NCBI GenBank assembly: GCA_031285345.1
Contig: JAITWI010000005.1
Coordinates: 1-35,365 of the forward strand
Origin: Alistipes sp.
GTDB lineage: Bacteria; Bacteroidota; Bacteroidia; Bacteroidales; Rikenellaceae
Length of the DNA: 35,365 bases
Direction: 5' to 3'
Shown here: piece after piece, positions 1-30,199 of the stretch
Position numbering within the stretch: the stretch's first letter is position 1
How the letters are laid out: each line of letters opens with the position of its first letter
The notes under the pieces: model-generated
Told to the model about the DNA's origin: nothing
Seen by the model: the letters and a program-made list of their open reading frames with translations, nothing else
The model's database searches: none
Translations under genes and position numbers: made by a program

Positions 1-3000
1 CGCGGCGGGGGGTGGGGGGGGTCCGTGTTCGATCGTCAGGAGGGTGGTGGTGGGTAGGGGGGCGGGGCACTCGGTGCTTGTGTTGTCGGTTCCTCTTTCG
101 GCGCTTGCTGCGGGGGCGAGTCCCGTGTCGGAGTGCGTTGCGGGTTTGGGGTCGGGGTTTGCGGTTGCGCGGCGGGAGAGCTCGATCAGGGTTCGTTTTG
201 GGCCGCTTTTGGGGGTCGAATGGACGACGGTGAGGCGCGAAGGTGCGAATCCGTGGCGCGCCGCGATTGCGATCATCGAGTCGGTTTCGCGTCCGGAGGG
301 GAGGATGATGGAGATTAGTCCGTGGGGCTTTAACAGCCTGTCACACACCATGATGAAGTCTTCGTGGGAGAGTGTTTCGGTGTGGCGCGCCATGGTTTTC
401 GGCGCGTCGGGCGAGGTGAGCGAGCCGCTGAAATATGGCGGGTTGGAGACGATGTGGTCGTAGCGGGGGGTGGGGGTTGGTGTTGCCGCCGGGGTTTCGG
501 TTTCGGTTTGCGGGGGCGGGATGGGGGTTGGCAGGGTTGCGTTTGAGTGGGTGGTGGGCGTCGTTGCTTCTGCTTTGGTTTCGGTTTTTGTTTGAGGTTG
601 GGTTTGCATTTGCGTTTGTCGAGAAGTAATGGGGCTCGGAAACTGCCTGCATGCGAGTAAGTTAGAGCGGGTGGTGGTTGCAATGAGGGCCTGTTGTGTT
701 CTGATTGAGGATGAATTCGATGGCGTGAATGTGGATTTTGTTATTGCTTCAGTTTCGATTTTTGTTTGTCGAGATGCTGCCGGGGTTGGCGGTGGTGGTG
801 TGGTAGAGATGTATCTTGGATACGTTCTGATTGCCAATGAGTTAGATGGCATGAAGGTGACAATGTGTTTCGGCGGCGTTGCGTTTGAGGGTAGGTTTGG
901 GTGGGTGGCGGGCGTTTGTTGGGATTCGACGGAGATCGGCGGGGTTCTGATTGCGAATAAATTAGAGCGAGTGGCAATAGCAATGTATTTCGGCCGCGTT
1001 GCGTTTGCGGGTAGGTTTGAGTGGGTGGTGGGGGTGTTTGCTTCGGTTTTGGTTTTGGTTTGGGCTTGCGTTTCGGTTTCAGTTTGCGGGGGCGAAATGT
1101 GCCTCGGCGGCGTTGTTGCGTTTGAGGGTGGGTTTGAGTGGGTTGTGGTTGTGGTTGATTTAGTTGCTTCGGTTTTGGCTTGCGTTTCGGTTTGCGGGAA
1201 TGAAATGGGGCTCAATGGTGTTGTTCCGCTTGAGGATAAGCCTGAGTGTGAGGTGGTTGCGGTTGATTTAGTTGCTTCGGTTTTCGTTTGGGTTATTTCG
1301 GTTTTTAGGGGCGGGATGGGGGTTGGCGGGGTTGTTGCGTTTGCGGATAAGCCTGAGTGTGAGGTAGTTGTGGTTGATTTAGTTGCTTTGGTTTTGGTTT
1401 GGGCTTGCGTTTCGGTTTCAGTTTCTGTTTCCGGAGAGGAAATGGGGCTGTATTTGTGGTGGAAATCACCGTAAATACCTTGATTATTAGCAATATATGT
1501 GTATGGGGCTTCGCTATGATTGTCGAGGTGCGAGGGTTCGGGGGTGTTTGGGTGGTGTTTGGAGGAGAGGCGTGGGGATTTTTGGGCGTTCATATGGTAT
1601 TTGTAGCTGTTATCACTGCGAACACGCTGATTATCAGTAATATATGTGCGGGATATTTTGCGATGATAGTTGCACGGTGTGCTCACAGAATAGGGGTTGC
1701 CGCGTTGTTTGGGGTCGTTTGGGTTGTATTCGGGGGCGAGGTTTTCAGGACGAGAATCGAGATGTGGAGGCGTTGGGTTGTGTGAGGAGTGTGAGGGGTC
1801 ATTGGTCGGGTGTTGCAGTGGCAATTCTCTGTGTATCAAGTGATTATCCGTATCGCGGTGGAAGATTTGATCGAGTGGAGCGTGTGCTGGATTATGGGTT
1901 GGATGTTGTGTAGATATTCCACTGTATGTCAGACGATTGGCTATGTCGCGGTGGGTGATTAGGTCGAATGGTGAGCGGTCGGGGTTGGGGCGGCGGAGGG
2001 TGTGTGCGGGTGCGTTGGCTGGATGCTGCGCGTGTATTTCACTGCATATCAGGAGATTGACTATGCAGCGGCGGGTGATTGGTGAGTGGTCGGGGTTGGG
2101 GCGGCGGAGGGGGTGTTCGGGTGGGTTGGCTGGATGTTGTACGGGCATTTCACTGGGTATCAGGCGGTTAGCTGTGACGTTACGGGTGATTAGGTTGAAT
2201 GCCGGGCAATTGGGGGATATTTTGGTGAATGTCGGGTGTTTGGACGTGTCAAGGTCGTTGGTTGGGTGCTGTATGTGTATTTTACTAACAATCATGAAGT
2301 TAGGCTGCTTAGTGGTGTCGCGACTGGCGATTAGGTTGAATGGTGAGCGGTCGGGGTTGGGGCGGCGGAGGGTGTGTTCGGGTGCGTTGGCTGGATGTTG
2401 CACGGGCATCTCGCTTGTTATCAAGCGGTTAGCTGTGACATTACGGGTGATTAGGTTGAATGCTGGGCAATTTGGGGATATTTTGGTGTGTGTCGGATGT
2501 TTGATCGTGTCGGGGTTGGGGCGGTATGGTGGGTGTGTGGAATCAACGGTTAGTTTTTGTATGTGTATTTTACTGACAGTAAGGTAATTATCTGCATTAA
2601 TGCATGGGTGGTGCGTGTGTTGATTGGCCTGGTGCCGCACGGATACTTCACTGAATGTCAGGTGATTGGCTATGTCGCAGCGGTTGGGGTTGGCTGGATG
2701 TTGTATGTGTATTTTACTAACAATCATGAAGTTAGAGTGTCTCGTGGTGTCGCGACTGGCGATTAGGTTGAATGGTGAGCGGTCGGGGTTGGGGCGGCGG
2801 AGGGTGTGTGCGGGCACGTGGTGGCATGGAGTATGTGCGGGTTCGTTCGCCAGATTCTGCGCGGGCATATCGTACAGTGTCAAGCGGTTAGCCCATTCGC
2901 TCGCGTCGAAGTTGCATCGAGCGCGGCGGGCGGCAGCGGGATCTATCTCGACCGTCTCTATCTGTGCATCCCAACTATCGGTTCTCTGGGCTAACTGCAA

Positions 3001-3165
3001 GGCAATCACCCCAGTACCAGTGCCTATATCAAGTATCACATTATCTTGTTGCGGTCTTAGTCGACACCACGCTCCCAATAGGACCCCGTCGGTGCCAACC
3101 TTCATTGCGCAACCTGTTTGATTTATTGTAAATCGCTTGAATTTGAAGATGTTGCATCCTATCAT
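1..3165 (-). CDS. trmN6: tRNA1(Val) (adenine37-N6)-methyltransferase with a giant in-frame repeat insertion (partial, 3' end outside window)
   Basis: Translating the minus strand from the ATG at 3165 gives 1055 codons without a stop, running off the left edge. Residues 1-95 are a normal TrmN6 start: FKFKRFTINQ, then CAMKVGTDGVLLGAW, SAM motif I VILDIGTGTG (43-52), VEID (72-75) and SEWANRL (89-95). The catalytic motif SNPPYF lies at residues 907-912 (about 447-430), followed by the normal C-terminal half (MARHTETLSHEDF, LLKPHGLISIILP, KRTLIELSRR). Relatives have roughly 20 residues between these halves; here there are about 800, rich in T, P, S, N, Q, H and K. A second insertion (~1000-1040) and a proline run precede the window edge. 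The start is 24 nt after the DUF2400 stop codon, so cotranscription is likely. The family methylates A37 of tRNA-Val(UAC) using SAM. Whether this version is active is unknown. Confidence 0.85.
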   Translation of the reverse strand, partial: MIGCNIFKFKRFTINQTGCAMKVGTDGVLLGAWCRLRPQQDNVILDIGTGTGVIALQLAQRTDSWDAQIETVEIDPAAARRARCNFDASEWANRLTLYDMPAQNLANEPAHTPCHHVPAHTLRRPNPDRSPFNLIASRDTTRHSNFMIVSKIHIQHPANPNRCDIANHLTFSEVSVRHQANQHTHHPCINADNYLTVSKIHIQKLTVDSTHPPYRPNPDTIKHPTHTKISPNCPAFNLITRNVTANRLITSEMPVQHPANAPEHTLRRPNPDRSPFNLIASRDTTKQPNFMIVSKIHIQHPTNDLDTSKHPTFTKISPNCPAFNLITRNVTANRLIPSEMPVQHPANPPEHPLRRPNPDHSPITRRCIVNLLICSEIHAQHPANAPAHTLRRPNPDRSPFDLITHRDIANRLTYSGISTQHPTHNPAHAPLDQIFHRDTDNHLIHRELPLQHPTNDPSHSSHNPTPPHLDSRPENLAPEYNPNDPKQRGNPYSVSTPCNYHRKISRTYITDNQRVRSDNSYKYHMNAQKSPRLSSKHHPNTPEPSHLDNHSEAPYTYIANNQGIYGDFHHKYSPISSPETETETETQAQTKTKATKSTTTTSHSGLSANATTPPTPIPPLKTEITQTKTEATKSTATTSHSGLSSSGTTPLSPISFPQTETQAKTEATKSTTTTTHSNPPSNATTPPRHISPPQTETETQAQTKTKTEANTPTTHSNLPANATRPKYIAIATRSNLFAIRTPPISVESQQTPATHPNLPSNATPPKHIVTFMPSNSLAIRTYPRYISTTPPPPTPAASRQTKIETEAITKSTFTPSNSSSIRTQQALIATTTRSNLLACRQFPSPITSRQTQMQTQPQTKTETKAEATTPTTHSNATLPTPIPPPQTETETPAATPTPTPRYDHIVSNPPYFSGSLTSPDAPKTMARHTETLSHEDFIMVCDRLLKPHGLISIILPSGRETDSMIAIAARHGFAPSRLTVVHSTPKSGPKRTLIELSRRATANPDPKPATHSDTGLAPAASAERGTDNTSTECPAPLPTTTLLTIEHGPPPPPAA
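466..2850 (-). repeat. Degenerate nested repeat array forming the insertion inside trmN6
   Basis: Two zones are visible. The promoter-proximal zone (about 1600-2850) is built from recurring pieces such as LRRPNPDRSPFNLI (four versions), (A/V)NxLxxSE and VSKIHIQ. It includes a near-identical pair at 2271-2382 and 2703-2814 (about six differences in 112 bp) and a second pair at 2164-2242 and 2425-2503. The distal zone (about 480-1480) repeats units such as TETETQAQTKTK, HSNLPSNAT and TKSTTTTSHSGLS. The plus strand is strongly G+T rich. No stop occurs in the trmN6 frame, whereas the other two minus frames are interrupted. Confidence 0.85.
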
Positions 3166-3189
3166 ATCGACTGTTACTTTAAGTTGTCG

Positions 3190-4215
3190 CTATCGGTTCA
3201 CGGGCGCGTCCCTGAATTCGCCGGCGATACCTGCTCCAAAGAGTGCGAAATCGAATTTTGCGGGGTCCGATGCGTCGAATTTGCGCAGGTTTGCAGTCGC
3301 CTCTTCCACTGAGCGCCAGTCATTTACGCGGCGCGACAGTAGTCCGAGAGAGCGAGCGGTATTTGCGCTGTGGAGGTCTAACGGGAGGTAGAGTGCCGAC
3401 GGCGGAATGCCCCTCCAGAGGCCAAAATCGACACCGCGGTCGTCGCGGCGGATCATCCACCTGAGGAACATGCATAGCCGTTTGCAGGCTGCCCCGCGAT
3501 CTATCGAGGAGAGGTGTTTTTCGCATCTTTGGGCGTGCGGCGGGGTGAAAAATTCTTGTCGAAAGCGAGACATTACGACCCTCAAATCGCCGTTTTGGTC
3601 GGGTTTTGGGTCGCTGATATTTCGTGCAAAATTGCTGACATTTCGTTCAGGGTCGTTGATATTCAATAATATACGACTGCTGTTTTTGCTCTTTTCGCTG
3701 TTTTCGGCGACGGTGCGGGCATATTCCGTTTCGAAGAAAGCACCCATGGATCCGAACTTGGAATAGATGTGACGCAGGGAGAGCAAGAATGCACGGAAGT
3801 CGGCGCCATTGAAAGTGCGGTGTACGTAGCTGTGGATGCGATTTAGCTCGTTTTGTGACGAATTTGCAACAAAATCGTACGGGGCGTTGTCGAGCAAATC
3901 CATCATTTTTGACGCACTTTTGACGATCGCCTTGCGGTTGCCCCAGGCGATGGTCGCGGAGAGGAAACCCGCTATTTCGATGTCGTTTTGGCGAGGGTGA
4001 TGCTCAGGGTGTATTTGGAGGTAAGTGTTTGATTGTGAGGTTTTTATGGTCTTGTTGGAGGTATGGAAGTTTGCGGTGCCGAAGAAGCGATGCGGAATGG
4101 AAATGGGGTCGTCGGCAATGAATTCCGGGGTATTATAGCGGTCGTGAAGTCTGTGGAGCAGGTCGTTCAGCCTCTCGAACGAAGCGGGATCGGAGATTGG
4201 GGCATCGGTAATCAT
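3190..4215 (-). CDS. TIGR02757/DUF2400 family protein with two low-complexity insertions
   Basis: The protein shows the family core: DPISIPHRF, DIEIAGFLSATIAWGNRKAI, LRHIYSKFGSM, then CKRLCMFLRWMIRRDDRGVDFGLW and PLDLHSANTARSLGLLSRR near the C-terminus. The biochemical role of this family is not established; a resemblance to helix-hairpin-helix DNA-repair proteins has been suggested. It is 341 residues long against roughly 250-260 usual for the family. The excess sits in two places: about residues 48-76, between PHRF and DIEIAGF, and about 165-205, where the DNA repeats pieces such as gggtcgctgatatt and gggtcgttgatatt. The trmN6 gene starts 24 nt downstream, in the same frame. Confidence 0.85.
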   Translation of the reverse strand: MITDAPISDPASFERLNDLLHRLHDRYNTPEFIADDPISIPHRFFGTANFHTSNKTIKTSQSNTYLQIHPEHHPRQNDIEIAGFLSATIAWGNRKAIVKSASKMMDLLDNAPYDFVANSSQNELNRIHSYVHRTFNGADFRAFLLSLRHIYSKFGSMGAFFETEYARTVAENSEKSKNSSRILLNINDPERNVSNFARNISDPKPDQNGDLRVVMSRFRQEFFTPPHAQRCEKHLSSIDRGAACKRLCMFLRWMIRRDDRGVDFGLWRGIPPSALYLPLDLHSANTARSLGLLSRRVNDWRSVEEATANLRKFDASDPAKFDFALFGAGIAGEFRDAPVNR

Positions 4216-4269
4216 TCGGGAAATTATATAAAGTAAAAGATTAGATGCTGATTGATTTTATCCACTGTA

Positions 4270-4920
4270 TCAGATGATTATGCCGTCTACCATTGTTATT
4301 TTTCGGTCGGCCATGGCGGCGAGATTTTCGTCGTGGGTTACGATTATTATGGTCTGCCCGAAACGGTCGCGAAGGGAGAGGAACAGCCGGTGTATTTCGT
4401 CGCGATTTCGGGAATCGAGGTTGCCGGAGGGTTCGTCGGCGAGGAGTACGGCGGGTGAATTGACGAGTGCGCGAGCAATCGCAACTCGTTGAGCCTCACC
4501 GCCTGAGAGTTCGGCCGGTTTGTGGTTTCGCCGCTCGGAAAGACCAAGCAGTTCAAGTAATTCCTCTGCCCGTTTTTCGACTTCGCGGCGGTCGCGGCCG
4601 GCGATGTGGCCCGGAATGCAGACATTTTCGAAGGCGGTGAATTCGGGAAGCAGGTTGTGGAATTGGAAGACGAAGCCTATTTTGCCGCCGCGAAATGCAG
4701 ATAACTCATTGTCACTGAGTTTATTGACCTCCACACCGTCGATGGTGACGCTACCGCTGTCGGGGCGGCTGAGCGTGCCGATAATCTGCAATAAAGTGGT
4801 TTTTCCGGCGCCGCTCGGGCCGACGATCGAGACGATCTCTCCCCTCTTGACGTTCAGTGTAACGCCCTTGAGGACAGTGAGTTGATCGAAACTTTTGCGG
4901 AGGTTTTTAATTGCTATCAT
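4270..4920 (-). CDS. lolD: LolD-like ABC transporter ATP-binding protein
   Basis: A complete 216-residue ABC ATPase. Walker A GPSGAGKT is at residues 34-41, the Q-loop at [16 protein letters not shown] (~86-100), signature LSGGE at 138-142, Walker B VLLADEP at 158-164 followed by SGNLD, and the H-loop in THDENLA. The sequence type is the MacB/LolD/FtsE group. The usual assignment in Bacteroidota is the ATPase that powers LolCE release of lipoproteins from the inner membrane. No permease gene is adjacent, so the partner must be encoded elsewhere and the LolD assignment rests on family resemblance. Unlike its neighbours it has no insertion. Confidence 0.85.
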
Positions 4921-5235
4921 ATGTTATTCGTCTTGTGAAACAATCTTGTCCCGGAACATGTCGCGGTCGGAATAGTGGTGTGTGGCGCGGCGTGGGATTG
5001 GGATTCGGGGCGATGACGGAATCCTGGTGCAGGGCGGCGGCGGTAATTGAATCTACATGATTAATCACTTGATATGATTGAGTGTAAGTTGCGGAAAATC
5101 AATGGCATGGTAATCGAGGTGGTTTTAATAGCTGGAGTCGTTTTGGACTCGTGGCAAATTTTGTTAATTGCATTTTCGAACGCGCCGCTACACATGATTA
5201 ATTACTTGATATGATCGAGCGTAAATTGCAGAAAA
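4921..5235. repeat. Intergenic spacer with a duplicated ~47-bp segment matching the folP 3' end
   Basis: This 315-bp spacer between lolD and folP contains no convincing gene. A segment at 5055-5101 recurs at 5192-5238 (acatgattaat, then acttgatatgat, then gaaaatca), with only a few differences. The second copy overlaps the folP stop codon (5236-5238). Weaker similarity continues to the right of both copies (tttaatagctggag versus tataatagttgtggag), which suggests a partial, decayed duplication of the folP 3' end. Confidence 0.6.
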
Positions 5236-6066
5236 TCAGCCGTTAACATTTTTATAATAGTTGTGGAGTTTTATCACTTCGACGGCGGCGAGGGTGTCGT
5301 GCACGCGCAAAATATTGGCGCCACCCTGCAAACAGGCCCAATTGAGCGCCGCGGTTCCCGAAAGAGCCTCCACGGGCGTGCTCTCCAATACGTTGTAAAT
5401 CATTGATTTGCGTGAAATTCCGGCCAAAATGGGCAGCTCGAATTTTTGCAACTGACGCAGCTGAGCAAGCAGGCGGAAATTTTGCGGCGTGGTTTTCGCG
5501 AATCCGAAGCCCGGATCGAGAATAATATCGTCCACCCCGCGGCTGCGCAAAAACTCGATCTTTTCGGCAAAAAAATCCTTAACGTCGGCTACAATATCTT
5601 GATAATCAGTCATTTCCTGCATCGTCTTGGGCGTGCCGCGCATGTGCATCAAAATGTACGGCACGCGAAATTTGGCCGCCACGTCGAAAATTTCGGGGTC
5701 GATTTGGCCGCCCGAAATGTCGTTTATGATGCACGCGCCGAAGCGTTTGATGACCTTGGCGGCCACCTCGGAGCGGAACGTGTCGAGCGAAACCACGACC
5801 CCGGGCGCCTTCGCCCGAACCACCTCGACGCCCGTCATCACGCGGTCAACCTCCTCATCCACAGATACATCCTCGGCTCCGGGGCGGGACGAATAGCCGC
5901 CCACGTCGATGATTTTGGCGCCCCACCCGACCGCCTCCTCGACCCGCATCGTGATCTCGTCGATGTGCATGCTGCGGCTGCCCGCAAAAAAAGAGTCGGG
6001 CGTGACGTTGACGATGGTCATCGCCACCGGGCGTGACAGGTCGAGTGTTTGTTCTCCAACTTTCAT
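5236..6066 (-). CDS. folP: Dihydropteroate synthase
   Basis: 276 residues, normal length. It joins 6-hydroxymethyl-7,8-dihydropterin diphosphate and p-aminobenzoate to make dihydropteroate in folate synthesis. Signature blocks are IVNVTPDSFF (18-27), KIIDVGGYSSRPGA (~51-64), VSLDTFRSEVA, IINDISGG, ILDPGFGFAKT and GISRKSMI near the C-terminus. The start codon lies 20 nt after the coaE stop, so ybbR, coaE and folP probably form one transcript. No insertion disturbs this enzyme, in contrast to coaE just upstream. Confidence 0.95.
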   Translation of the reverse strand: MKVGEQTLDLSRPVAMTIVNVTPDSFFAGSRSMHIDEITMRVEEAVGWGAKIIDVGGYSSRPGAEDVSVDEEVDRVMTGVEVVRAKAPGVVVSLDTFRSEVAAKVIKRFGACIINDISGGQIDPEIFDVAAKFRVPYILMHMRGTPKTMQEMTDYQDIVADVKDFFAEKIEFLRSRGVDDIILDPGFGFAKTTPQNFRLLAQLRQLQKFELPILAGISRKSMIYNVLESTPVEALSGTAALNWACLQGGANILRVHDTLAAVEVIKLHNYYKNVNG

Positions 6067-6086
6067 TGTATCAATCGTTTATCAAG

Positions 6087-7370
6087 TTATTTTTGCTTTT
6101 TTGGCTGCGGCGGCGAGTTCTTTTTTGCGTCGCCGAGGCGCAATAGTTTGTCGAGTTCGCTGACCCGAGCGGCGAGTTGCATGAGGTCGCCGCCGTTGTA
6201 GATCGTGTAATCTGCGCGAGCGATTAATTCGCTTTCGCTCAGCTGGTTAGACATTCTTTTTATCACATCGTCGCGCGACGGGCCGCGGCCGCTTGCCATG
6301 CCCGGGACGCGGGCAGTTTCGGGGTTGCGCGTCGAGTTCGAGCCCGATGGCGTTGCGGAGCTGCGGGCAGTTGCGGGGTTGTTCGGCTCTGTTGCGGAGC
6401 TGCGGGCCATCACCCGGGCGATGCGTAACTCCTCGGGTGCCGATACTGCTATGACCTTATCCACCAGGTGATTAAACCCGCTCTCGAAAAGTATCGCGCT
6501 CTCCATTATAAGGTATGGAGGTGTTCCTGCTTCGGCTTTCGACGTGGTTTTTGGGTCGGTTTTTTGAGACGCTATTGTGGGGGGGGTGGGTGCCGGCGGG
6601 GATTCGAGCGCCATTGCGGCAACATTCGCACGTTCCTTCATGCCGCGCGCCGGGGATTCGAGCGTCGTCGCCCACGCTTCGAAATCTTGCGCCACGATGG
6701 GGTGAACTATCGCATTAAGTGAGGCGAGTAACGACTTGTCACTAAATACTTTAGCTGCAATAAACTCGCGATTCAAAGAGCCATTGCACCACGCCTCGGC
6801 GCCAAGCAACTCGACGATCGCGCGGCGGAGATTTGCGCCACGTTCGTTAGTTCCAGCTGCGACGCTTTGTTCGCTGTCGCGGTCGCACTCATCACGATAG
6901 GTTCCAGCTGCGCCGTAACGTTCGCTCCCCCTCACTGTGTCGCCGGCAACCACACTTTGTTCGCTGCCATGCCCGCGGGCATCGCCATTATCACAGCCAA
7001 ACTCGGGGTCGAATCCGGCTTCGACGAGGTTATTATCGCCCATTTCACCCCTGGTCCCGAATTCGGCGCGTATGCTTTCGCCGACCGCGACCTCGAATTT
7101 GGTGCGTATGCTTTCGCCTCGGCCGTTTCCGGCCTCCGCGACGCAGACCGCGCCTACCGAGACGTCAGGTTCGTTTTCGCCAATCGCGCCGCTGTGTTCA
7201 CCGCCTTCCGCCGTGTTGTCGCGAGCTGAGGTGCCGAACATTTCGGCGCCGGACATAAGTTCGCGCGCGCGAAGGTCGGTGTTGTAAACAGGTATGCCGA
7301 GAGCCGCAAATATCTCACACACAGTGCTTTTTCCACTGCCGATACCCCCCGTGACGCCGATGCGAATCAT
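6087..7370 (-). CDS. coaE: Dephospho-CoA kinase with three low-complexity insertions
   Basis: CoaE phosphorylates dephospho-CoA with ATP, the last step of CoA synthesis. P-loop GGIGSGKST is at 8-16, followed by [10 protein letters not shown] (30-39); [11 protein letters not shown] with LNAIVHP (~199-224) and [14 protein letters not shown] (~286-299) follow, and the lid/C-terminal part is [26 protein letters not shown]. The protein is 427 residues against about 200 usual. The excess is three in-frame blocks: about 41-180 (with repeated GESIR and SEQSV motifs), about 235-283 and about 323-362 (ARSSAT twice). All lie between conserved motifs, so a folded kinase with disordered loops is plausible. 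Loss of function cannot be excluded, although no second coaE is in the window. Confidence 0.9.
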
Positions 7371-7395
7371 CTTTCACACACAAATTTGAGCCCGA

Positions 7396-7989
7396 TCATT
7401 CGGCGCCGTCGGCCTTTGGTTTCGCTTTCGCCGCCTCGGCCTCCTCCCGTTCCTTGGCGGCTTTGGCCTCGGCCTCCTCCGCGGCGCGCTTATCGCGCCT
7501 CTCCTGCCGTTCGCGTTTGCGTTTTTCGCGCGCGGTTTCGCCGTCATCATTCCCATCCCCGTCGGCGTCCGCGGCGACCTCCTTGGGGGCGGGCACGAAC
7601 TCGGGTGCCTCGACTATCTGCTCCACCTTCAGCTCGTTGACCGCGTCGTTGATGGCGCGCTGCAACGAGGCGGGGGTGATGGTGAGCGCGCCCTTGGTTT
7701 GGCGCGAGGAGCGGCTCGAAAGGTCGTCCAGAGAGAGGTCGAGCGGGCTTTTGAGCGACAGTCGTTGGGCCAGGATCGTGGAGCCGCGACCCGTGACGAG
7801 GGCGGTGACTTTGTATTTTTGGCCGTCGATGCGCACCTTGAGCGGCATCTGAGAGGTGTATTCGTAGCCCAACTTGGTGGTGAACCACAACAGGCACGAG
7901 ACCAGCAAGATGAGCAAAAACGCGGGCGAAAGCGCCTGACGCAGCACCCCGATCACCCGTTCGCGATTTATGTTGAACCCTTTGAGCAT
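7396..7989 (-). CDS. YbbR-like (CdaR-type) single-pass membrane protein
   Basis: The start at 7989 (MLKGFNINRERVIG) is chosen over a longer frame because a TAnnTTTG promoter box lies 7 nt before it and the upstream sequence looks non-coding. The 197-residue product has one N-terminal membrane segment (about 17-35), a YbbR-like extracytoplasmic region (MPLKVRIDGQ, LVTGRGSTIL), and a highly charged alanine/lysine/glutamate tail from about residue 130 that looks coiled or disordered. In other bacteria YbbR/CdaR proteins pair with a diadenylate cyclase; none is visible here. It appears to be the first gene of a ybbR-coaE-folP unit (25-nt gap to coaE). Confidence 0.75.
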   Translation of the reverse strand: MLKGFNINRERVIGVLRQALSPAFLLILLVSCLLWFTTKLGYEYTSQMPLKVRIDGQKYKVTALVTGRGSTILAQRLSLKSPLDLSLDDLSSRSSRQTKGALTITPASLQRAINDAVNELKVEQIVEAPEFVPAPKEVAADADGDGNDDGETAREKRKRERQERRDKRAAEEAEAKAAKEREEAEAAKAKPKADGAE

Positions 7990-7994
7990 AATGA

Positions 7995-8281
7995 GACAAA
8001 TGTACGAAATTTTTGACGAACTGAGTGGAAATGCAAGCTTCGCTTGCAATTTCCCGAAGTGAGGATTAAAATGCGTGAAGCGAAAGCCGAGCGCAGACGC
8101 AAATTTATTTGACGATGTTCTCCTGCACTTCGTGCCTCCTCGTCCTTGCGAGGCGACCTCTGCTCCCGCTTCGTTCCCCCGGTTCGCACCTCGGCTATTC
8201 GAGCGAGGCTCGATAGCGCTCGGTTTGTCGTCGGTTGCAGATTGCCCTGGCGCGGTGCGTAAGGCGAAGACAAATGTACGA
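7995..8281. repeat. Palindrome-rich intergenic segment bounded by 13-bp direct repeats
   Basis: gacaaatgtacga occurs at 7995-8007 and again at 8269-8281. The 261 bp between contain a hairpin at 8027-8054 (ggaaatgcaagc paired with gcttgcaatttcc) and several short palindromes (gcacttcgtgc). No believable gene is present. It resembles a small non-autonomous intergenic repeat that inserted into the ybbR promoter with target duplication, but a simple promoter duplication would look similar. Confidence 0.45.
7997..8004 (-). promoter_or_regulatory. Bacteroidota -7 promoter box for ybbR
   Basis: TACATTTG on the minus strand matches TAnnTTTG and ends 7 nt before the ybbR ATG. The transcript would therefore start at or next to the start codon, leaving almost no leader. 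The same octamer recurs at 8271-8278. Confidence 0.55.
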
Positions 8282-8291
8282 CTATTTCCAC

Positions 8292-8335
8292 AAAATAAGA
8301 CAGGGGCTTGAAAAATCAAACCCCTGTCTTATTTT
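8292..8335. terminator. Bidirectional hairpin terminator after secG
   Basis: A perfect 15-bp stem (aaaataagacagggg paired with cccctgtcttatttt) with a 14-nt loop and A/T flanks on both sides. It closes the secG operon on the minus strand. Confidence 0.8.
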
Positions 8336-8396
8336 ATAGTCGATTATGGCCTACTATGGCCGACGGAGATGGCAGAACCAATAGAACCGGCCGTAA

Positions 8397-8810
8397 CTAT
8401 TCGGCGGCTTGCTCGGTTGCCGGAACTGCCGTTTCTCCCGTCGCTTCCGCGGCGGGGGTGGCTTCAGTCGGAGTTTCTGCTTCGGCTTCGGCGGGAACGT
8501 CCACCTGGTTGGGGATAACTTCCTGACCGCTGGTCTCGACCTGGTCGATGATGGCGTTTTCAACCCCGGTGCGGCTGCGTTCGACGCGATCTTTGGGCAT
8601 CGTCATCGTTGCGACAAGGCTCAGCAGAAGAATCGCGATGGCGAGCCCCCACGTCGATTTTTCGAGAAAATCGGCGGTTTGCCTAACGCCCATCACGGCG
8701 TTGGAGGCTCCGAAGTTGGCGGCCATTCCGCCCTTGGGACTTTGAGACAGCACGGCAAGGATAAGCAGTATACTTGCGATGAAAATCAGTACGATACAAG
8801 CTATGTACAT
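8397..8810 (-). CDS. secG: Preprotein translocase subunit SecG
   Basis: Start chosen at MYIACIVLIF (8810), where the first membrane helix begins. The product is 137 residues. TM1 is at about 3-22, followed by the SecG loop QSPKGGMAANFGASNAVMGVRQTADFLEKSTW and TM2 at about 54-70. SecG assists SecYE in protein export across the inner membrane. The tail from about residue 100 is an alanine/glutamate/threonine-rich low-complexity stretch, as in several proteins of this window. It is the last gene of the operon, 35 nt after the TPR gene. Confidence 0.9.
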   Translation of the reverse strand: MYIACIVLIFIASILLILAVLSQSPKGGMAANFGASNAVMGVRQTADFLEKSTWGLAIAILLLSLVATMTMPKDRVERSRTGVENAIIDQVETSGQEVIPNQVDVPAEAEAETPTEATPAAEATGETAVPATEQAAE

Positions 8811-8845
8811 TTCAGTTGTATATTTTAATTGTTTGTTTTTTCTAT

Positions 8846-9409
8846 TTAAACTTCGCACCTCGTTACGGCCGCCTGTTCGGCGTCGATGCGCGAAATAACG
8901 CCCGCAAAGTAAACACTTTTTTCGGGATTGTGCAAGCTAAGGCGGCGATATATTTCTTTCGCCTCAGCGTGGAGGCCCTGTTTGAGGTATATTTCGGCCA
9001 GTTGTTCGGTCACCAGATCGGGGTCGAGGTCGAAATCGCGGCCCGCCGACGCAGCCGCACCGCCCACCTCTCCCTCCGACGGCACTATCCGGTGGCCGCC
9101 GTGGCTGAGGAAACGGTCGATTATGCGGTCGGAATCGGTATCGGCTTCGGCTGCCGCGCTATCGGGAGTCGAGGAGGTCGAGAGGGCTTGGGGAGTTAAG
9201 GAGGCCTTCGTCCGGTCGGGCGCCGCCAAAGGTGCGGCGGTGGCCCAAAAGCCCGCGGGAAGGATCAGCGCCGGATCGGGATCGCCGGTCACGAGCGCAC
9301 GGGCGCGGCGGGCGGTGGTGAACCACTCGTGGCGCTCTATCAGCCGGTTGATATCCCTGCGGCCGGGGGGCTCTCCCCTGCCCCTCAGATATTCGTTGAG
9401 CGGGTGCAT
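8846..9409 (-). CDS. Tetratricopeptide-like protein of the LptE-SecG operon
   Basis: 187 residues. The C-terminal part (about 128-175: LVTEQLAEIYLKQGLHAEAKEIYRRLSLHNPEKSVYFAGVI) is a TPR-like helical pair typical of the Bacteroidota protein encoded between lptE and secG. The N-terminal half has a short conserved helix (HPLNEYLRG) followed by alanine/serine/threonine-rich low complexity (about 60-115). The ATG is 2 nt after the lptE stop, indicating translational coupling. The function is unknown; the operon suggests an envelope role. Confidence 0.75.
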   Translation of the reverse strand: MHPLNEYLRGRGEPPGRRDINRLIERHEWFTTARRARALVTGDPDPALILPAGFWATAAPLAAPDRTKASLTPQALSTSSTPDSAAAEADTDSDRIIDRFLSHGGHRIVPSEGEVGGAAASAGRDFDLDPDLVTEQLAEIYLKQGLHAEAKEIYRRLSLHNPEKSVYFAGVISRIDAEQAAVTRCEV

Positions 9410-14437: not shown

Positions 14438-15337
14438 ATGAAAAAACTGTTTTTAATCGCGGCGGCGGTGTCGATGACGGCCGTTTCCGCTTTCGCTCAG
14501 GCTCAGGCCGGAGCCGACCGGCAACTGCCCGCAGGATGGGACGAACTGACCGGACCCGACTTTAAATTGGCCGTAGAACAGGCCGAGGGTGTGTGTGTGA
14601 TCCCGATGGGCGTGGTGGAAAAGCACGGCCCGCACATGCCGTTAGGTACCGACGTGTTTTCGGCTCGCGAAGTGGCCCGTCGCGCCGTGGCGGACGAGTA
14701 CGCCGTGGTCTATCCGTTCTACTTCGTGGGGCAGATTCACGAGGCCAAGCAGCAGCCCGGAACGATAGCTTACAGTCCCGAGCTGGTCTACCGAATGTTG
14801 GAGGAGACGTGCGAAGAGATTTCGCGCAACGGCATGAAAAAGATTATCCTCAACAACTCCCACGGCGGCAACACGACCTTTCTGGAGTATTTCTGCCAGA
14901 GTCAGTTGGCCGCACGCAAGGACTATGTGGTGTATCTGTTTCAGCCGTCGGTCGATAGGGAGACCGCTCAGCGGATCCGTGAACTGCGCAAGAGTGAAAC
15001 CGGCGGTCACGCCGACGAGGTGGAGACCAGCACCCTGATAGTGGCAAAGCCCGACCTGATGAGGATGGAGACGGTGAACGACGAGTCGGGCGAGGACCTG
15101 AACCGCCTCGACGTGCCCAACCTCTACACCGGAATATGGTGGTACGCAAAGTATCCCAACCACTACGCCGGCGAGTCGTCGGGTGCGAGCGTAGAGTTGG
15201 GCGAGGTTGCCCTCGCGCAGAAGAGCGCACAGCTGGCCGAGGTGATCCGCACGGTGAAGCGCGACGCCGACGCCTTGAAGTTGCAGGACGAGTTCTTTCG
15301 CCAGAGCGACGAGCCGCTGAAGACGCCGATTTGGTAG
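14438..15337 (+). CDS. Secreted creatininase-family amidohydrolase
   Basis: Start chosen at MKKLFLIAAA (14438), giving a clear signal peptide with cleavage near AFAQA (about 20). The 299-residue product has the creatininase metal-binding pattern: EKHGPHMPLGTD (E61, H63, H66, D72), then NNSHGGN, then GHADEVETS. Family members are metal-dependent hydrolases of cyclic amides such as creatinine, or related enzymes of cofactor or polysaccharide metabolism; the substrate here cannot be told. The signal peptide puts it in the periplasm. The stop codon lies inside the first copy of a repeat that recurs downstream. Confidence 0.85.
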   Translation: MKKLFLIAAAVSMTAVSAFAQAQAGADRQLPAGWDELTGPDFKLAVEQAEGVCVIPMGVVEKHGPHMPLGTDVFSAREVARRAVADEYAVVYPFYFVGQIHEAKQQPGTIAYSPELVYRMLEETCEEISRNGMKKIILNNSHGGNTTFLEYFCQSQLAARKDYVVYLFQPSVDRETAQRIRELRKSETGGHADEVETSTLIVAKPDLMRMETVNDESGEDLNRLDVPNLYTGIWWYAKYPNHYAGESSGASVELGEVALAQKSAQLAEVIRTVKRDADALKLQDEFFRQSDEPLKTPIW

Positions 15338-15411
15338 GTCGTCGCGCTTCGATCCGGTAAGTTGTCTCCGGTAGGTCGTCGCGCTTCGATCCGGTAGGTC
15401 GTCGCGCTTCG
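15333..15411. repeat. Three tandem copies of a sequence spanning a gene 3' end
   Basis: ggtaggtcgtcgcgcttcg recurs at 15333, 15370 and 15393; the first two copies continue with atcc. The first copy includes the creatininase stop codon. Confidence 0.8.
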
Positions 15412-17375: not shown

Positions 17376-18203
17376 CTATTTTATCATCCTCCCCTTTTCG
17401 GTCAGCGAATAGGTCTGATCGGGATGATTCGGGTTGTCGGGATGCGACGGAATCACAAACCCACCCACGATGGCCGGGCGCAGATACTCGTACAGCAAGT
17501 GTGGACGGTGTTTAAGCCCCAACTCCGCCATAATTTCCGACATTTTCTTCGGAGTATCAAGTATTTGTATTAACTTCACAACCTTTGGATCGGGTTGTTC
17601 GGTAGGTTGTTCGGTAGGTTGTTCGGTAGGTTGTTCGGTAGGTTGTTCGGTAGGTTGTTCGGTAGGTTGTTCGGTAGGTTGTTCGGTTTCGTCCTCCGGT
17701 CGCCACAAAGTAACCTTAAAATCCTCCTCTTGGGCGAAGATCGGAGTGCGCAAACCCGCCGCCTCGCACTTGGTGATTATATCGCCCGTACCCGTTCCCA
17801 TCCGCTCGATGCTTCCGGCGAGATACATCGGATTAGCCAACAGCGGATTGACAGGTATAGAAGTATGTGGATGACGGAGTTTCTCGACGGTCAGACCGAC
17901 GGGCAATCTTCCGGGATTCCAAATTTCGAGGCGGTTTTTGAACAGCATCACCTGCACGCTCCCGTTGCTCGAATAGTCGCGGTGGGCAATGGCGTTCACA
18001 ATCGCCTCGGTCACAGCGGCCAACGGAAGCTCGTAATCGACATCGACCCGAACATCCGTGTCGCGAGTGCCAACCCGCGCGTCGATGCGCGACATCACGA
18101 AATCGACCGCCTGCGTAATCAACTGAAACACATCGCCCCGATACACCTGATAGGACGGAATCGGTTTCGCCACCTCGTTGCCATAGAATTGGGCGCACTT
18201 CAC
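17376..18203 (-). CDS. C-terminal fragment of a DUF4062/ATP-binding protein (HATPase and winged helix)
   Basis: 275 residues readable from an internal ATG (MKCAQFYG). It contains the AlbA-type transcriptional regulator/ATP-binding module: ELPLAAVTEAIVNAIAHRDYSS (N-box), NRLEIWNPGRLP and GSIERMGTGTGDIITKCEAAGL. An EQPT repeat and a winged-helix-like tail (VVKLIQILDTPKKMSEIMAELGLK) follow. The conserved sequence preceding it (RLTNAAILLFGRQPQRFF) is present in the DNA at about 18230-18275 in this frame. The N-terminal domain is in another frame because of a 4-bp slip at 18267-18278. The fragment could be made as a separate protein only by internal initiation. Restored, the gene would encode about 508 residues. 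Confidence 0.75.
   Translation of the reverse strand: MKCAQFYGNEVAKPIPSYQVYRGDVFQLITQAVDFVMSRIDARVGTRDTDVRVDVDYELPLAAVTEAIVNAIAHRDYSSNGSVQVMLFKNRLEIWNPGRLPVGLTVEKLRHPHTSIPVNPLLANPMYLAGSIERMGTGTGDIITKCEAAGLRTPIFAQEEDFKVTLWRPEDETEQPTEQPTEQPTEQPTEQPTEQPTEQPTEQPDPKVVKLIQILDTPKKMSEIMAELGLKHRPHLLYEYLRPAIVGGFVIPSHPDNPNHPDQTYSLTEKGRMIK
17593..17688 (-). repeat. 12-bp tandem repeat encoding EQPT units
   Basis: Seven copies of ggttgttcggta plus one partly changed copy encode Thr-Glu-Gln-Pro repeats linking the ATPase and winged-helix parts. Identical units indicate recent slippage. Because the unit is a multiple of three, copy changes alter linker length and not frame. Confidence 0.9.
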
Positions 18204-18906
18204 CTCCGACGAGATAAAAAATCGTTGCGGCTGACGACCGAAAAGCAGGATCGCCGCATTGGTCAGCCGTCCGTCCGTCTGGAGCGATTAGGTCGAGGTG
18301 TGTCAAAATCCGCTCTGTGCTCGCGTCGGCGGATAGAGGGAGACCTCTGCGCTTGCCCGCGATATGCACGAATTCGCGAACCTTTTCCTCGTCGATGTCG
18401 GCCATCGTTGCCCGGCTCAATGTCGCGTCGAACGGCAGAATCCGTAGATACTCCTTTTGTTCGAGGTAGTGAACGAGCGCGGCATAGACCCCGGCACGCA
18501 ACTCCTCGTAATCGACGAACGACTTGCGCACGACCGCACTCTCGGCTTTGGCGACGAATTTTTGTTGCTTAGGATCGCGGTCACCGCTCCCCGTTTTGTG
18601 AATGAAAATCAGCCTGTATTTCGATTCGGCGGTCGCCTTGTCGTATTCCCGCTCTGTCGGCGAAATCCCGGAAGCATCCTCGAAACCATAGCTGTCGCCC
18701 AAAATACCGATGTAAATATCGCTATGCCCGACCTCAGACAGGTACGCCTCCTGCACAGAGAGGTCGGCGGCGGGCAACTCCTCGAACAGGAACGGGTCGA
18801 AGAATTTACCCAACAGCGCATCTTGCCGGATGTAATCGCACAACCATCGCCGCTCTCCTGCGAACTCGCGCTGAACACTGCTTATGAATATCTTAATAGG
18901 CTTCAT
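17833..18906 (-). CDS. N-terminal fragment of a DUF4062/ATP-binding protein (frameshifted)
   Basis: Starting at MKPIKIFISS (18906), the first ~210 residues are a DUF4062 domain: KIFISSVQREFAGERRWL, FLFEELPAADLSVQEAYLSEV, DIYIGILGDSYG and GISPTEREYDKA. This is a TIR-like fold common at the N-terminus of STAND and other conflict-related proteins. A linker then reaches LIAPDGR, where the frame is lost. The remaining ~145 residues to the stop at 17833 are out of frame and meaningless. The intact reading continues as LTNAAILLFGRQ in the frame of the downstream fragment. A promoter box lies only 6 nt upstream of the ATG. Confidence 0.75.
   Translation of the reverse strand: MKPIKIFISSVQREFAGERRWLCDYIRQDALLGKFFDPFLFEELPAADLSVQEAYLSEVGHSDIYIGILGDSYGFEDASGISPTEREYDKATAESKYRLIFIHKTGSGDRDPKQQKFVAKAESAVVRKSFVDYEELRAGVYAALVHYLEQKEYLRILPFDATLSRATMADIDEEKVREFVHIAGKRRGLPLSADASTERILTHLDLIAPDGRTADQCGDPAFRSSAATIFYLVGGEVRPILWQRGGETDSVLSGVSGRCVSVDYAGGRFRDVAHRRAGWHSRHGCSGRCRLRASVGRCDRGDCERHCPPRLFEQRERAGDAVQKPPRNLESRKIARRSDRRETPSSTYFYTCQSAVG
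18267..18278 (-). repeat. Tetranucleotide (CCGT)3 frameshift site
   Basis: Three tandem ccgt units on the plus strand (gacg on the coding strand). Two units would join APDGR directly to LTNAAILLFG in frame; three units shift the frame. Either the gene is broken or expression is switched by slippage. Confidence 0.75.
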
Positions 18907-18912
18907 CGAGAA

Positions 18913-18920
18913 CAAAGATA
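18913..18920 (-). promoter_or_regulatory. -7 box of the DUF4062 gene
   Basis: TATCTTTG on the minus strand, 6 nt before the ATG at 18906, so the mRNA may be leaderless. Confidence 0.5.
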
Positions 18921-24673: not shown

Positions 24674-26575
24674 TCAAAAATCGGCGACGGCGCGGGCGGC
24701 GTAGTAGCGACTCTTAAAAGTAGTAACAGAACTGTAATAGCTATATCGAAAATAGGCGAAATAAGCATGATCGGGGCCGTATTCCGAAGATGACCAATAT
24801 CCCTGTTCATCACGGAGTGCTATGCCGTTCGCGTCGGTGAGACACTGATTGAAGATGTCGAATCCCAGTTCCCTCCATGCATTGTACAAAGTCGGCAGAT
24901 CGCCCTGACTTGGCAAATACCAGTTTTCGGTTTCCGTCTTTTTAGCATCGACCCATGCCATAACGTCCCACCAATTACCACTCCCTTCATCCAGGCTCAC
25001 GATCTTGCCGTGCTGTCCGCTGCCGGTGGCGGGATTGTAGCCCGCGGCGTTGGGGTTGAGCTCGTAGACCACGCCCAACGGCTCGCCATCGGCGGGATAG
25101 ACGTCGCCCACACGGTAGAACCGTTGCACGCAGCGGACGGGTAACTCGTTGGTGACTATAGAGCTTGTATCGAAATACGCATGGTCTGCGTTGAAGTGTA
25201 TGATGTGACCGTAGGTACCATAATCAGGAATCTCGATGTGCACATCAGACCAGTAGTAGCCGTCAGCACCGTCAAAATCACCACCTGCGGCGGGCAAAAA
25301 AACAGAGTTTTCGCCGCTGCCGAACCGGCGGCCGCTCGCACCCTCTTCGGTAGTCCACCGGCTGCCGGCGGCTATGAGCCTCTCAAACTCCGCCGGCGTC
25401 GGCACCCGCCAACCTTCGGGGCAGGCGGTTTGGGCCTCGTCGAAGTTATAGTAGCCGCCGCCGTCCCAAGGATCGGAGGCGAACTTACCGGGAGTGGCGC
25501 CCACGTTGCGCGATGCCCACCTCAGACCGTCCATCTCGACATACTCCGGAAACGGGGGCGAGGTGGTGATGGGCGCTCTGGGCACTTCGTCCCACGGGGT
25601 GATGCGGCCGGTGGCGGTGACGCCCGTGCGCGATATCACAACGTCGTAGGTGTATTGCGTGTTGGCGGCGAACGAGGCCTGGGCGGCGGTGAGCGTCCAG
25701 ACGAAGGTTTCGTTCGCGGGGCCGATGCGCGGAAACTCGACCCGCAACTCGCCGTCTTCGTAGTCGTAGGGGGCGAGGGGGATTCGTAAAATCCCGTCTT
25801 CTGTACGGAATTCGTAATCAATCTCGGGAAGATCAGGGATATCAATCGCCGAAAGCGTGCCTGTCGCGGGGTGGAATGAGATGCCATTTTTCAACCCGTA
25901 AATCGTCGGGAACGACCTATCGCCGATATCTTCGGCCGTTATACCGGCGCCGGGGATGAGGTTAAACACAATCTGCGAGTGCACACGGCGGAAATCGAGC
26001 TCCACAGGGCCGCTCTTGCGGTTGTATCCCGCGCCCCCGTTGTCGGCCCCGACCCAAAATATACCATGGTCGATCAAGGGCGCGTATTCAACCATATAGC
26101 CCCGAAACAGTTCGTCGAATGGGATAGTGTCACCCCACCATGAATGCATGGCTATAAAATCGACCTCTCCGAGCTGCGGATAGTAGATCACATCTTCCGG
26201 GGAGGCCATCACAAAACCGTTCTCTTCGTCGTAAACGTATTGGCACCCTTCCGCGCCGTCCACGATGTCGGTGGTGCCGTGCTCGACCATGTACACGTAT
26301 ATTTTGTCGCCGGCCTCCCACTCGTTGCCCGTGACGCGGGTCGAGGGGGTGACTGCGCCGTCGATTTTAGTCGTAAATCGCACCTCGACGCGGTCGCCCT
26401 CGCCTGTCGCATCGTCGGGGCCTTCCGGAGCGCAACCCGTCAAACCGGCGAAGCCCGCCAAAAGCGTCAGCCCAGCCGCTGCCGACAACATCCTCGCCGC
26501 GAATCCGGTGCGTTCCGCCGCCGCCCGAGCCGCATAGGCTCCGAAGCGCGCAGTCGTCCAAATTATATTTTTCAT
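24674..26575 (-). CDS. Fimbrillin-family lipoprotein with FISUMP and DUF1566 adhesin-like domains
   Basis: Start chosen at MKNIIWTTARFG (26575), 20 nt after the preceding stop. The 633-residue product has an unusually long signal ending in GLTGC. The fimbrillin-like N-terminal domain (about 50-325) shows EVRFTTKIDG, TRVTGNEWEAGDKIYVYM and FDFRRVHSQIVFNLIPGAG-type sequence. A FISUMP block follows (about 340-480: MDGLRWASRNVGATPGKF, CPEGWRVPTPAEFERL), then a DUF1566 block (about 485-633: GKIVSLDEG, NWYLPSQGDLPTLYNAW, YWSSSEYG). This is the last gene of the fimbrial operon. The layout suggests a minor or tip subunit of a Mfa-type fimbria with a terminal adhesin. Confidence 0.75.
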   Translation of the reverse strand: MKNIIWTTARFGAYAARAAAERTGFAARMLSAAAGLTLLAGFAGLTGCAPEGPDDATGEGDRVEVRFTTKIDGAVTPSTRVTGNEWEAGDKIYVYMVEHGTTDIVDGAEGCQYVYDEENGFVMASPEDVIYYPQLGEVDFIAMHSWWGDTIPFDELFRGYMVEYAPLIDHGIFWVGADNGGAGYNRKSGPVELDFRRVHSQIVFNLIPGAGITAEDIGDRSFPTIYGLKNGISFHPATGTLSAIDIPDLPEIDYEFRTEDGILRIPLAPYDYEDGELRVEFPRIGPANETFVWTLTAAQASFAANTQYTYDVVISRTGVTATGRITPWDEVPRAPITTSPPFPEYVEMDGLRWASRNVGATPGKFASDPWDGGGYYNFDEAQTACPEGWRVPTPAEFERLIAAGSRWTTEEGASGRRFGSGENSVFLPAAGGDFDGADGYYWSDVHIEIPDYGTYGHIIHFNADHAYFDTSSIVTNELPVRCVQRFYRVGDVYPADGEPLGVVYELNPNAAGYNPATGSGQHGKIVSLDEGSGNWWDVMAWVDAKKTETENWYLPSQGDLPTLYNAWRELGFDIFNQCLTDANGIALRDEQGYWSSSEYGPDHAYFAYFRYSYYSSVTTFKSRYYAARAVADF

Positions 26576-26594
26576 TGTTGTAATTCTGCTAAAG

Positions 26595-28802
26595 TTAAAA
26601 AGACATGACGGCGCGAACATTGACCGGTCTGTTTTGGAGATTCTTTTTCTCCGGACCCGATTTCATCTGACGGTGATCATACACCATGGCATCCCCTGTT
26701 TGGGAGGCTTGTTGAGACGACCAGTATATGGTGGTCGAGTGTTCGAATCTGTCCGAATTGGCTATCCGTCTCAACCCCTCGATGACGGTGGCCTTCGCCC
26801 TGAACAGCACATTTAACTCCTCTTCGGTAGGCAGATACCACACGCCGGGTTTCCATTGGGAATAGGTCGTTCCGGCAGGGTTTCTATCGTGACACCACTT
26901 GAAGGCGGGATAGTTTGCGAAGTTGCCGCCTTTCAGACCGATAATCCGCATGTTCTCGCAACCATTGGAGGTAACGGTATTCTCCCTCACATTGTAAGTC
27001 CCCCACGGCACGCCTCTCGCCTCGTCGAGACTCACTATGTTGCCGTTTCGACCATTGGCGGAGACCTCGAACACCACACCTATGGGGGTGCCGCTATGGG
27101 GATAGATGTCGCCCACGGCATAGAAGGCGTCGATAGAGTCGAACTGATCCGCCCACGGCGAAGAGACGTAGGTGTTGTAGCTCCCTGCCGGGACGTAGAG
27201 CACGTCCGCCTTATCGGGGAAGTATGGATCGCGTTCGAAACAGTCGGGGTGGATTTCGGGCGGCGAGGTCGCCAAAACGGTTACCTCTTCGAGTTTGAGG
27301 CAGTAGCCGAACGCTCCATCCGGCATGCTCTCCACATCCTTGCCGATAGTCACGCTCTCAAGGCCGAGACAGTTGTAGAAGGCAAAAAAGCCGAGGGTTC
27401 TGATGCTGCTAAGATCGACCGCGGTGAGGTCTTCGCTATTGAAGAAAGCCTCGTCTCCGATGACCGTCACGCCGCTCAGGTCAATATCCACAAGTCTGGG
27501 GCATGATTCGAAGGCATCCGATTCGATCTCCTTCACCCCTCCTAAATCGACCTCCGTCAGGCTTACGCAAGCCCAAAATGCAGAATTGCCCACCTTCGTC
27601 ACACTTTGGGCGAGCCGGACGCTCTCAAGTGACGCAAAATTAATAAAAGCCGAGTATCCCACACTTGTCACCCCCTCCTCGACGATCACTTTTTTGACCC
27701 GGTCCACGTATTCCTCCCACGGTCTTTCTATTACCGAATAGCTGGGCATAGCTCCGGTGCCCGAGATTATCAGGGTGCCGTCGGCGGTGATGCGCCAGAA
27801 GATGTTGCCATCCACGCCGCTATCGAGAAGGTCTTCGACCCCGCCCTCGATCGGAGCGTCGTCCGTGCCCTCCCACGGGGCGATGTCGGGCGAGCCGAAC
27901 TTGATTTGGGTGCCGTCGATGGTCACGGGGTATATGTAGTGCTCGCCAGGCTCGAACGATTCGCCCCCGGGGAAGCCTGCGGTGCGCAGTTCACCGCCCA
28001 CATTGAACGTTATCGTAGCTTCTTCCATATCCCTCCCGTCGTCCGGAACGACAAGGGCGGTGAAGGTGGCGTCGGCTCCCGTGCGGGTGGCGATCCGGCG
28101 GGCGTCGAAGTCGCCGAAGTTGATACTCGGAAAGGAACCGGGATAAAAAATTGCAAGAAGCGCCTCTCTGAGGATGTTGCCCAGCGTGACCGACTCCACG
28201 TCGGCGCCCGTGAGCCCCTCCATCCCCTCGCCCAACGTGATGTCGAACGACACCCTGCTCAACGCGTGCGAAAAGATAAACTCCACCGTCTCGCCTTTGG
28301 AGTAAGCATTCCAATTGGCAGGCATATCCGGCCAGCTCCACATAAAATCGACATGGTCGGCAAGGTCGAACAAAATATGACCCGGGCGTTCGAACTGATC
28401 GGTGGGGCAATATGGGTAGTATGCCACGAAATAAAACTCTCCCGTTTGCGAGTAGTAGAGCGTTTCGGCGGCCGAGGCCGGGGCGAAAGAGGCCGTAGTG
28501 GGATCCTGTCCCGGGGTGGCGATATATTTCGCGTTTTCGACCATCAGGCCGCCGTCCGCCGTAAGCATATAGATGCCTATCGCGTCGCCAGCCACCCAAC
28601 TGTTGCCGTCCGCCGAGGTGCGGGTGGCCTCTCCGTTTAAGCGGGTCTTGAGGCTCTCTATTCCGGCGGTGAAGCGTACTTCGGTAAGGCTGTCGGAGCC
28701 CTTATCCTTTTCGCCGTCGGGCGCGCAACTCACCAACCCGGCCGCAAAACTCGCGAAAAGCAACATCGCTGCTGCAACACATATATATTTAATAGTTTTC
28801 AT
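26595..28802 (-). CDS. Fimbrillin-LRR-DUF1566 fusion lipoprotein
   Basis: 735 residues, lipobox LVSC (Cys26). The N-terminal fimbrillin-like domain (about 38-310) has VRFTAGIESL, SWVAGDAIGIYM, FVAYYPY and FIFSHALSRVSFDITLGEG. A BspA-type leucine-rich repeat (LRR_5) block follows (about 330-545: VTSVGYSAFINFASLESV, KVGNSAFWACVSLTEVDL, VIGDEAFFNSEDLTAVDL, MPDGAFGYCLKLEEV), then a DUF1566 C-terminal module (about 565-735: GNIVSLDEARGVPWG, NPAGTTYSQWKPGVWYLPTEEEL, YWSSQQ). BspA-like repeats mediate attachment to host matrix proteins or other bacteria in oral and gut anaerobes. The three-part fusion suggests a fimbrial tip adhesin. Confidence 0.8.
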   Translation of the reverse strand: MKTIKYICVAAAMLLFASFAAGLVSCAPDGEKDKGSDSLTEVRFTAGIESLKTRLNGEATRTSADGNSWVAGDAIGIYMLTADGGLMVENAKYIATPGQDPTTASFAPASAAETLYYSQTGEFYFVAYYPYCPTDQFERPGHILFDLADHVDFMWSWPDMPANWNAYSKGETVEFIFSHALSRVSFDITLGEGMEGLTGADVESVTLGNILREALLAIFYPGSFPSINFGDFDARRIATRTGADATFTALVVPDDGRDMEEATITFNVGGELRTAGFPGGESFEPGEHYIYPVTIDGTQIKFGSPDIAPWEGTDDAPIEGGVEDLLDSGVDGNIFWRITADGTLIISGTGAMPSYSVIERPWEEYVDRVKKVIVEEGVTSVGYSAFINFASLESVRLAQSVTKVGNSAFWACVSLTEVDLGGVKEIESDAFESCPRLVDIDLSGVTVIGDEAFFNSEDLTAVDLSSIRTLGFFAFYNCLGLESVTIGKDVESMPDGAFGYCLKLEEVTVLATSPPEIHPDCFERDPYFPDKADVLYVPAGSYNTYVSSPWADQFDSIDAFYAVGDIYPHSGTPIGVVFEVSANGRNGNIVSLDEARGVPWGTYNVRENTVTSNGCENMRIIGLKGGNFANYPAFKWCHDRNPAGTTYSQWKPGVWYLPTEEELNVLFRAKATVIEGLRRIANSDRFEHSTTIYWSSQQASQTGDAMVYDHRQMKSGPEKKNLQNRPVNVRAVMSF

Positions 28803-28829
28803 CTTACCTGAATTTTTTAAGCCACAACG

Positions 28830-30185: not shown

Positions 30186-30199
30186 GGCGTTCTTCTGTT

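Follow-up and report, generated by a model that had tools for sequence, protein, structure and literature searches.

In-frame repeat insertion makes trmN6 about four times as long as usual in an Alistipes genome with many interrupted housekeeping genes

The window analysed here (35,365 nt, the entire contig C59 of a metagenome-assembled Alistipes genome) ends inside a gene for TrmN6, the tRNA m6A37 methyltransferase, whose two halves are linked in one unbroken frame across about 790 extra residues. Owing to an in-frame repeat insertion, this gene is about four times as long as usual. We examined the enzyme core and the inserted DNA itself and compared them with other genes and genomes.

The trmN6 frame and the enzyme core

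The trmN6 open frame occupies positions 1..3165 of the minus strand and comprises 1055 codons, beginning with an ATG start and free of stops up to the contig end. The earlier note had described this frame as joining GTGTG (residues 48-52) to NPPYF (residues 908-912), and both positions were confirmed. The N-terminal half (residues 1-104; 2854..3165, minus strand) shares 57-67% identity with same-genus relatives and contains the SAM-binding motif I, DIGTGTG (residues 46-52; 3010..3030, minus strand). The C-terminal half (residues 901-1055; 1..465, minus strand) carries the catalytic motif IV, NPPYF (430..444, minus strand), and is cut off before the native end (...YRALTRDFYL). In an alignment of 35 sequences the N, P, and P of this motif were invariant, and the conserved residues were retained in both halves. 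By alignment, a smaller second expansion of about 15 and 20 residues lies near the C-terminus (approximate limits 46..177, minus strand); the same-genus genome G008 is expanded at the same position, too.

Motif I and NPPYF were both found with the flanks specific to the TrmN6 family. The NCBIfam TrmN profile (NF047853) matched the protein in two separate stretches with an E value of 8e-48, and its whole-protein score of 163 bits lies below the cut-off of 350 because the insert breaks the match and the contig end removes the C-terminus. The assignment to TrmN6 is therefore based on the motifs, on the gene neighbourhood, which is common to congeners, and on the fold. No second trmN6 copy was detected in the assembled genome, where a normal one would have counted against the interpretation put forward in the earlier note. 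A search with a degenerate pattern for the missing C-terminus (YRALTRDFYL) gave no match elsewhere in the genome.

In an AlphaFold model of the protein, both halves were largely predicted with pLDDT values above 90 (mostly so in the N-terminal half) and the insert with values of about 28-45. When the disordered stretches were left out of the model, the two halves together matched TrmM of Mycoplasma capricolum (7wm6) with a Z score of 28.6 over 225 of 240 residues at 2.2 Å. This result was obtained with a second aligner that covered both halves; Foldseek aligned the N-terminal half only. As the alignment used by AlphaFold held relatives, folding of the core was expected and is no independent test: the TrmM-like fold is predicted from a model guided by relatives and indicates compatibility rather than folding in the cell. 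The protein thus resembles TrmN6/TrmM (YfiC) in motif I, NPPYF, the C-terminal core and the predicted fold of 7wm6, but differs in the predicted disordered loop of about 790 residues between alpha-C and the NPPYF strand and in a native C-terminal end that lies outside the assembly.

Frame, repeats and origin of the trmN6 insertion

The insertion extends over residues 105-900 (466..2853, minus strand), between a helix at residues 102-107 and a strand at residues 902-907. Its length is 796 codons by the cut chosen here and 785 by pairwise alignment, in agreement with the roughly 800 repetitive residues between the core motifs that had been noticed before. It contains no stop in frame versus 24 and 40 stops in the other two forward frames, and Markov simulations of the insert (order 1-3) gave an expectation of about 20 stops per frame, with a probability below 0.001 of finding none. 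The earlier note had proposed, as one of two options, that the insert is translated as a disordered loop; this proposal is supported by a frame kept far beyond chance, by the intact halves and by the disorder predicted in the model.

Two parts can be distinguished within the insertion. Part A (1435..2853, minus strand) is rich in H, P, N, and T and harbors the repeat families D1-D4, whose spacings of 111, 261, 372, and 432 nt are all multiples of three; it appears to consist partly of copies of native codons 92-107. Part B (466..1434, minus strand) is rich in T, P, S, A, Q, and E and is built of units of about 108-111 nt. Repeat copies inside the insert were 60-92% identical, and the longest exact repeat in the open frame measured 66 nt. 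Judged by its DNA, the insert is unique, as the only match elsewhere in the genome was 30 nt long, and neither inverted repeats nor palindromes were detected in it.

A native origin of part of the insert is suggested by the alignment of the native trmN6 segment ANRLTLYDMPAQNLAN with ANRLITSEMPVQHPAN of the insert, which reached a DNA score of 23 compared to a maximum of 15 in 500 shuffles and covers one segment of part A only. The signal was obtained with the genome's own native segment and with that of G003, and the G005 sequence gave none (P 0.94). The match argues that the insert arose, in part at least, by duplication of native sequence. Based on few sites, the dN/dS ratios between insert copies lay between about 0.3 and 1; the two longest pairs gave 0.31 and 0.33. 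Given this spread, selection acting on the sequence of the insert is either weak or not demonstrated, and the values are compatible with weak constraint.

We also analyzed trmN6 in relatives. In a family survey of 200 genomes, 195 gave a trmN6 match. Among the matches listed, which do not include the weakest ones, relatives showed a single contiguous match of about 690-790 nt, and a kilobase-scale split was present only in the genome studied here. The distance from motif I to NPPY in relatives compared at full length was mostly about 70-82 residues and at most 112. The alignment across relatives proposed in the earlier note for a comparison of insertion lengths thus yielded contiguous genes in those listed, and in G008 a small unrelated insert at the same loop.

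Insertions in other genes and in related genomes

The trait is not specific to trmN6, which carries the largest of more than 100 similar insertions in housekeeping proteins. Next to it, a DUF2400/TIGR02757 gene (3190..4215, minus strand), recognized by profile matches, has insertions of 29 and 34 residues in the alignment. Four genes from trmN6, the dephospho-CoA kinase gene coaE (6087..7370, minus strand) comprises 427 codons versus about 195 and has insertions of 52, 92, 32, and 37 residues. Region 1 of these corresponds to residues 45-173 (6852..7238, minus strand; a few native residues included), and alignment and model place region 2 at about residues 240-285 (6516..6653, minus strand) and region 3 at about residues 327-362 (6285..6392, minus strand). 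The Pfam match of CoaE is split into three stretches here and contiguous in each of 36 relatives with a match. In the CoaE model the core reached pLDDT values above 90 and the inserts mostly values below 50, and the target-normalized TM score to solved CoaE structures was about 0.7-0.85.

A second CoaE start was found on contig C7 (L079, 3172 bp) and considered as a paralogue. The proteins of this contig, which ends inside an uninterrupted coaE start, show about 77-79% identity to G005/G001. The paralogue was rejected, since the contig derives from a co-binned relative.

Elsewhere in the genome, the RNase R frame encodes 1097 amino acids compared to 694-759 in nine same-genus genomes, and LpxB has 756 amino acids compared to 380-435 in relatives where it is complete. 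Together with CoaE, these lengths settle for several genes that the change was an insertion in this genome. Further interrupted genes encode MurF-Alr (alanine racemase), Tgt, RsmG, MutS, the large subunit of exonuclease VII, an acetylornithine-type transaminase and a menaquinone enzyme. Duplicated native units are visible as LLRGM-RSDQNEM in a hydrolase and as VVPTA units in Tgt.

To quantify the insertions, we compared 577 kb of this genome (34%) with 1.47 Mb of the same-genus genome G003, the sole full comparator. Among 267 orthologue pairs with an identity of at least 40%, internal insertions of at least 20 residues numbered 141 (in 92 genes) here and 15 in G003 (binomial p 7e-27). For insertions of at least 50 residues the counts were 30 and 0, and for those of at least 100 residues 6 and 0. 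As trmN6 is absent from the listed orthologue set, these counts do not rest on it. The insertions were spread over nearly all sampled contigs, often at several sites per gene; S, G, A, and P were overrepresented in them, and W, M, Y, L, and I were underrepresented. Highly conserved proteins were largely spared: an insert was present in 2 of 23 genes above 85% identity and in 38 of 93 genes at 65-75% identity. The survey was based on open reading frames, which favours in-frame insertions, and a split-gene test for out-of-frame ones was weak, since its candidates were mostly apparent antisense shadow ORFs (4-nt gaps), with about two plausible real splits.

The density of tandem arrays was 291 per Mb here versus 26.5 in G003 (about 11-fold), 382 in a small G008 sample, 0 in a G005 sample and 78 in assorted other loci. 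Inside orthologous genes 70 arrays were found here versus 7 in G003, and 67 of the 70 had a period divisible by three. Outside orthologous genes this was the case for 60 of 98, part of which DNA still holds genes outside the orthologue set. This difference is as predicted by mutation everywhere combined with selection for the frame inside genes.

When other genomes of the genus were compared with G003, no insertion asymmetry was found for G005, G001, and G006. For G008 it was milder, with 12 versus 1 insertions of at least 20 residues in about 34 kb. Among the genes examined, the loops expanded here in trmN6, TIGR02757, the hydrolase and CoaE also hold inserts in G008, which are small and unrelated in sequence, and another lies near one LpxB site, suggesting that certain loops are repeatedly permissive.

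Competing explanations and known counterparts

We consider it likely that the insertions arose by lineage-specific tandem duplication, with selection on the host enzyme preserving the frame and the copies translated as disordered loops at permissive sites. Coding DNA of this gut-type, Alistipes-like Bacteroidales lineage would undergo unusually frequent short tandem duplication, by replication slippage or short-repeat recombination. In-frame copies in surface loops would be tolerated and, as they diverge, turn into disordered segments of biased composition, and out-of-frame copies within genes would be purged. In trmN6, the loop between the helix at residues 102-107 (alpha-C) and the strand preceding NPPYF would have grown from about 10-25 to about 800 residues. 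TrmN6 is most likely translated whole, and its halves may fold into a normal, presumably active methyltransferase around the disordered loop.

A further-reaching version, inflation of the whole proteome by in-frame tandem duplication that might reinforce itself through an insert-bearing MutS weakening the control of slippage, is conceivable but doubtful. MutS comprises 1195 codons stop to stop versus about 880-910 (contig C23, L108:689-4273, minus strand), and its ATPase domain V is interrupted by about 104 residues that include an alanine-glycine repeat. A simple loss of mismatch repair was rejected, as MutS and MutL are both present.

It is improbable that the loops are adaptive, i.e., that the lineage gains from disordered segments, for instance in condensates or tethering, beyond merely tolerating them. 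The scale of the trait, its recurrence at the same loops in G008 and the biased composition could be read in this way, but insert sequences differ between genes and species without a common motif, and the most conserved proteins have few inserts. Moreover, the density of tandem repeats outside orthologous genes is no lower than inside them, which points to mutation bias.

An artefact of the metagenome, either a chimeric contig or mis-stacked repeats, appears very unlikely. The source is a metagenome-assembled genome of 1.72 Mb in 82 contigs with 81% completeness and 2.5% contamination, contig C7 clearly is a co-binned relative, and the contig break falls inside trmN6. However, the longest exact repeat is within short-read length, the repeat copies are diverged yet in frame, and similar insertions are present in nearly all sampled stretches and, more weakly, in the independent genome G008. 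There is similarly little probability that trmN6 is a decaying pseudogene whose frame is open by chance or because the decay is recent. The tRNA m6A37 modification is dispensable in laboratory E. coli, and the repeat copies differ at many amino acids, but 1055 codons contain neither stop nor frameshift although the copies have diverged to 75-92% identity, the conserved residues are kept, and the same pattern occurs in genes whose products are presumably essential or important (coaE, lpxB, mutS, RNase R).

Removal of the insert after transcription or translation, by an intron, bypass or protein splicing, would yield an enzyme of normal size, and the earlier note had offered a process of removal not yet described as its alternative. 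An insert of 800 residues in an enzyme core is extreme, and the halves are intact; nevertheless, we regard removal as highly improbable. No Rfam family, and thus no known self-splicing intron, was matched in positions 1-9000 of the window, a removed intron would not need a frame open throughout, no dispersed or palindromic element was found, and the more than 100 insertions in other genes have unrelated sequences, often several per gene. Least likely is a mobile element inserted in frame: Rickettsia palindromic elements, which are dispersed, palindromic, about 150 bp long and grouped in families, are indeed found as in-frame additions to metabolic genes (PMC10969869), but the inserts of the present genome are each unique, lack a palindrome and derive at least in part from tandem repeats, with short matches confined to 5 of about 10,000 insert pairs, no inverted-repeat ends across the surveyed proteins and neither one element shared by several genes nor a palindromic structure.

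Tandem duplication translated as loops, the reading preferred here, also has partial counterparts in known systems. Bacterial surface and contingency genes carry intragenic in-frame tandem repeats with periods in threes; the units described here are similar in both respects, but affect cytosolic housekeeping enzymes genome-wide. Malaria parasites, more than bacteria, are known for this pattern. Most Plasmodium falciparum orthologues owe a greater length to lineage-specific insertions that lie chiefly in loops and leave the cores in place (PMC4456382). Many orthologues of the present genome are likewise lengthened by lineage-specific loop insertions around conserved cores, but in a bacterium whose G+C content of about 56-60% is not AT-rich and whose inserts favour S, G, A, and P. 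A literature search, which covered few subscription papers, found no bacterial precedent of such an expansion. If confirmed, this genome of moderate G+C content would be a bacterial equivalent of malaria parasites, whose proteomes are laden with insertions. It would allow tests of the tolerance of core enzymes for disorder, of permissive loops and of the mutational or repair change that started the expansion, all the more as a same-genus series is available in which expansion is slight in G003 and G005, present to some degree in G008 and extreme in this genome. In genomes of this kind, annotation by length filters or profile cut-offs will overlook genes or give them wrong names.

Some further features of the window were noted. 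Within 17376-18915 on the minus strand, two coding parts lie in different frames, which suggests a frameshifted gene; judged by eye, the N-terminal one (17833-18915) is DUF4062-like and the C-terminal one (17376-18203) ATP-binding-like. The ATP-binding-like part contains TEQP about eight times, with a perfect 12-bp array at 17593-17687. An intergenic tandem repeat at 15333-15411 has units of 37 and 23 bp, not a multiple of three. At 24674-31138 (minus strand), a run of adjoining fimbrillin-like lipoprotein genes was recognized by eye.
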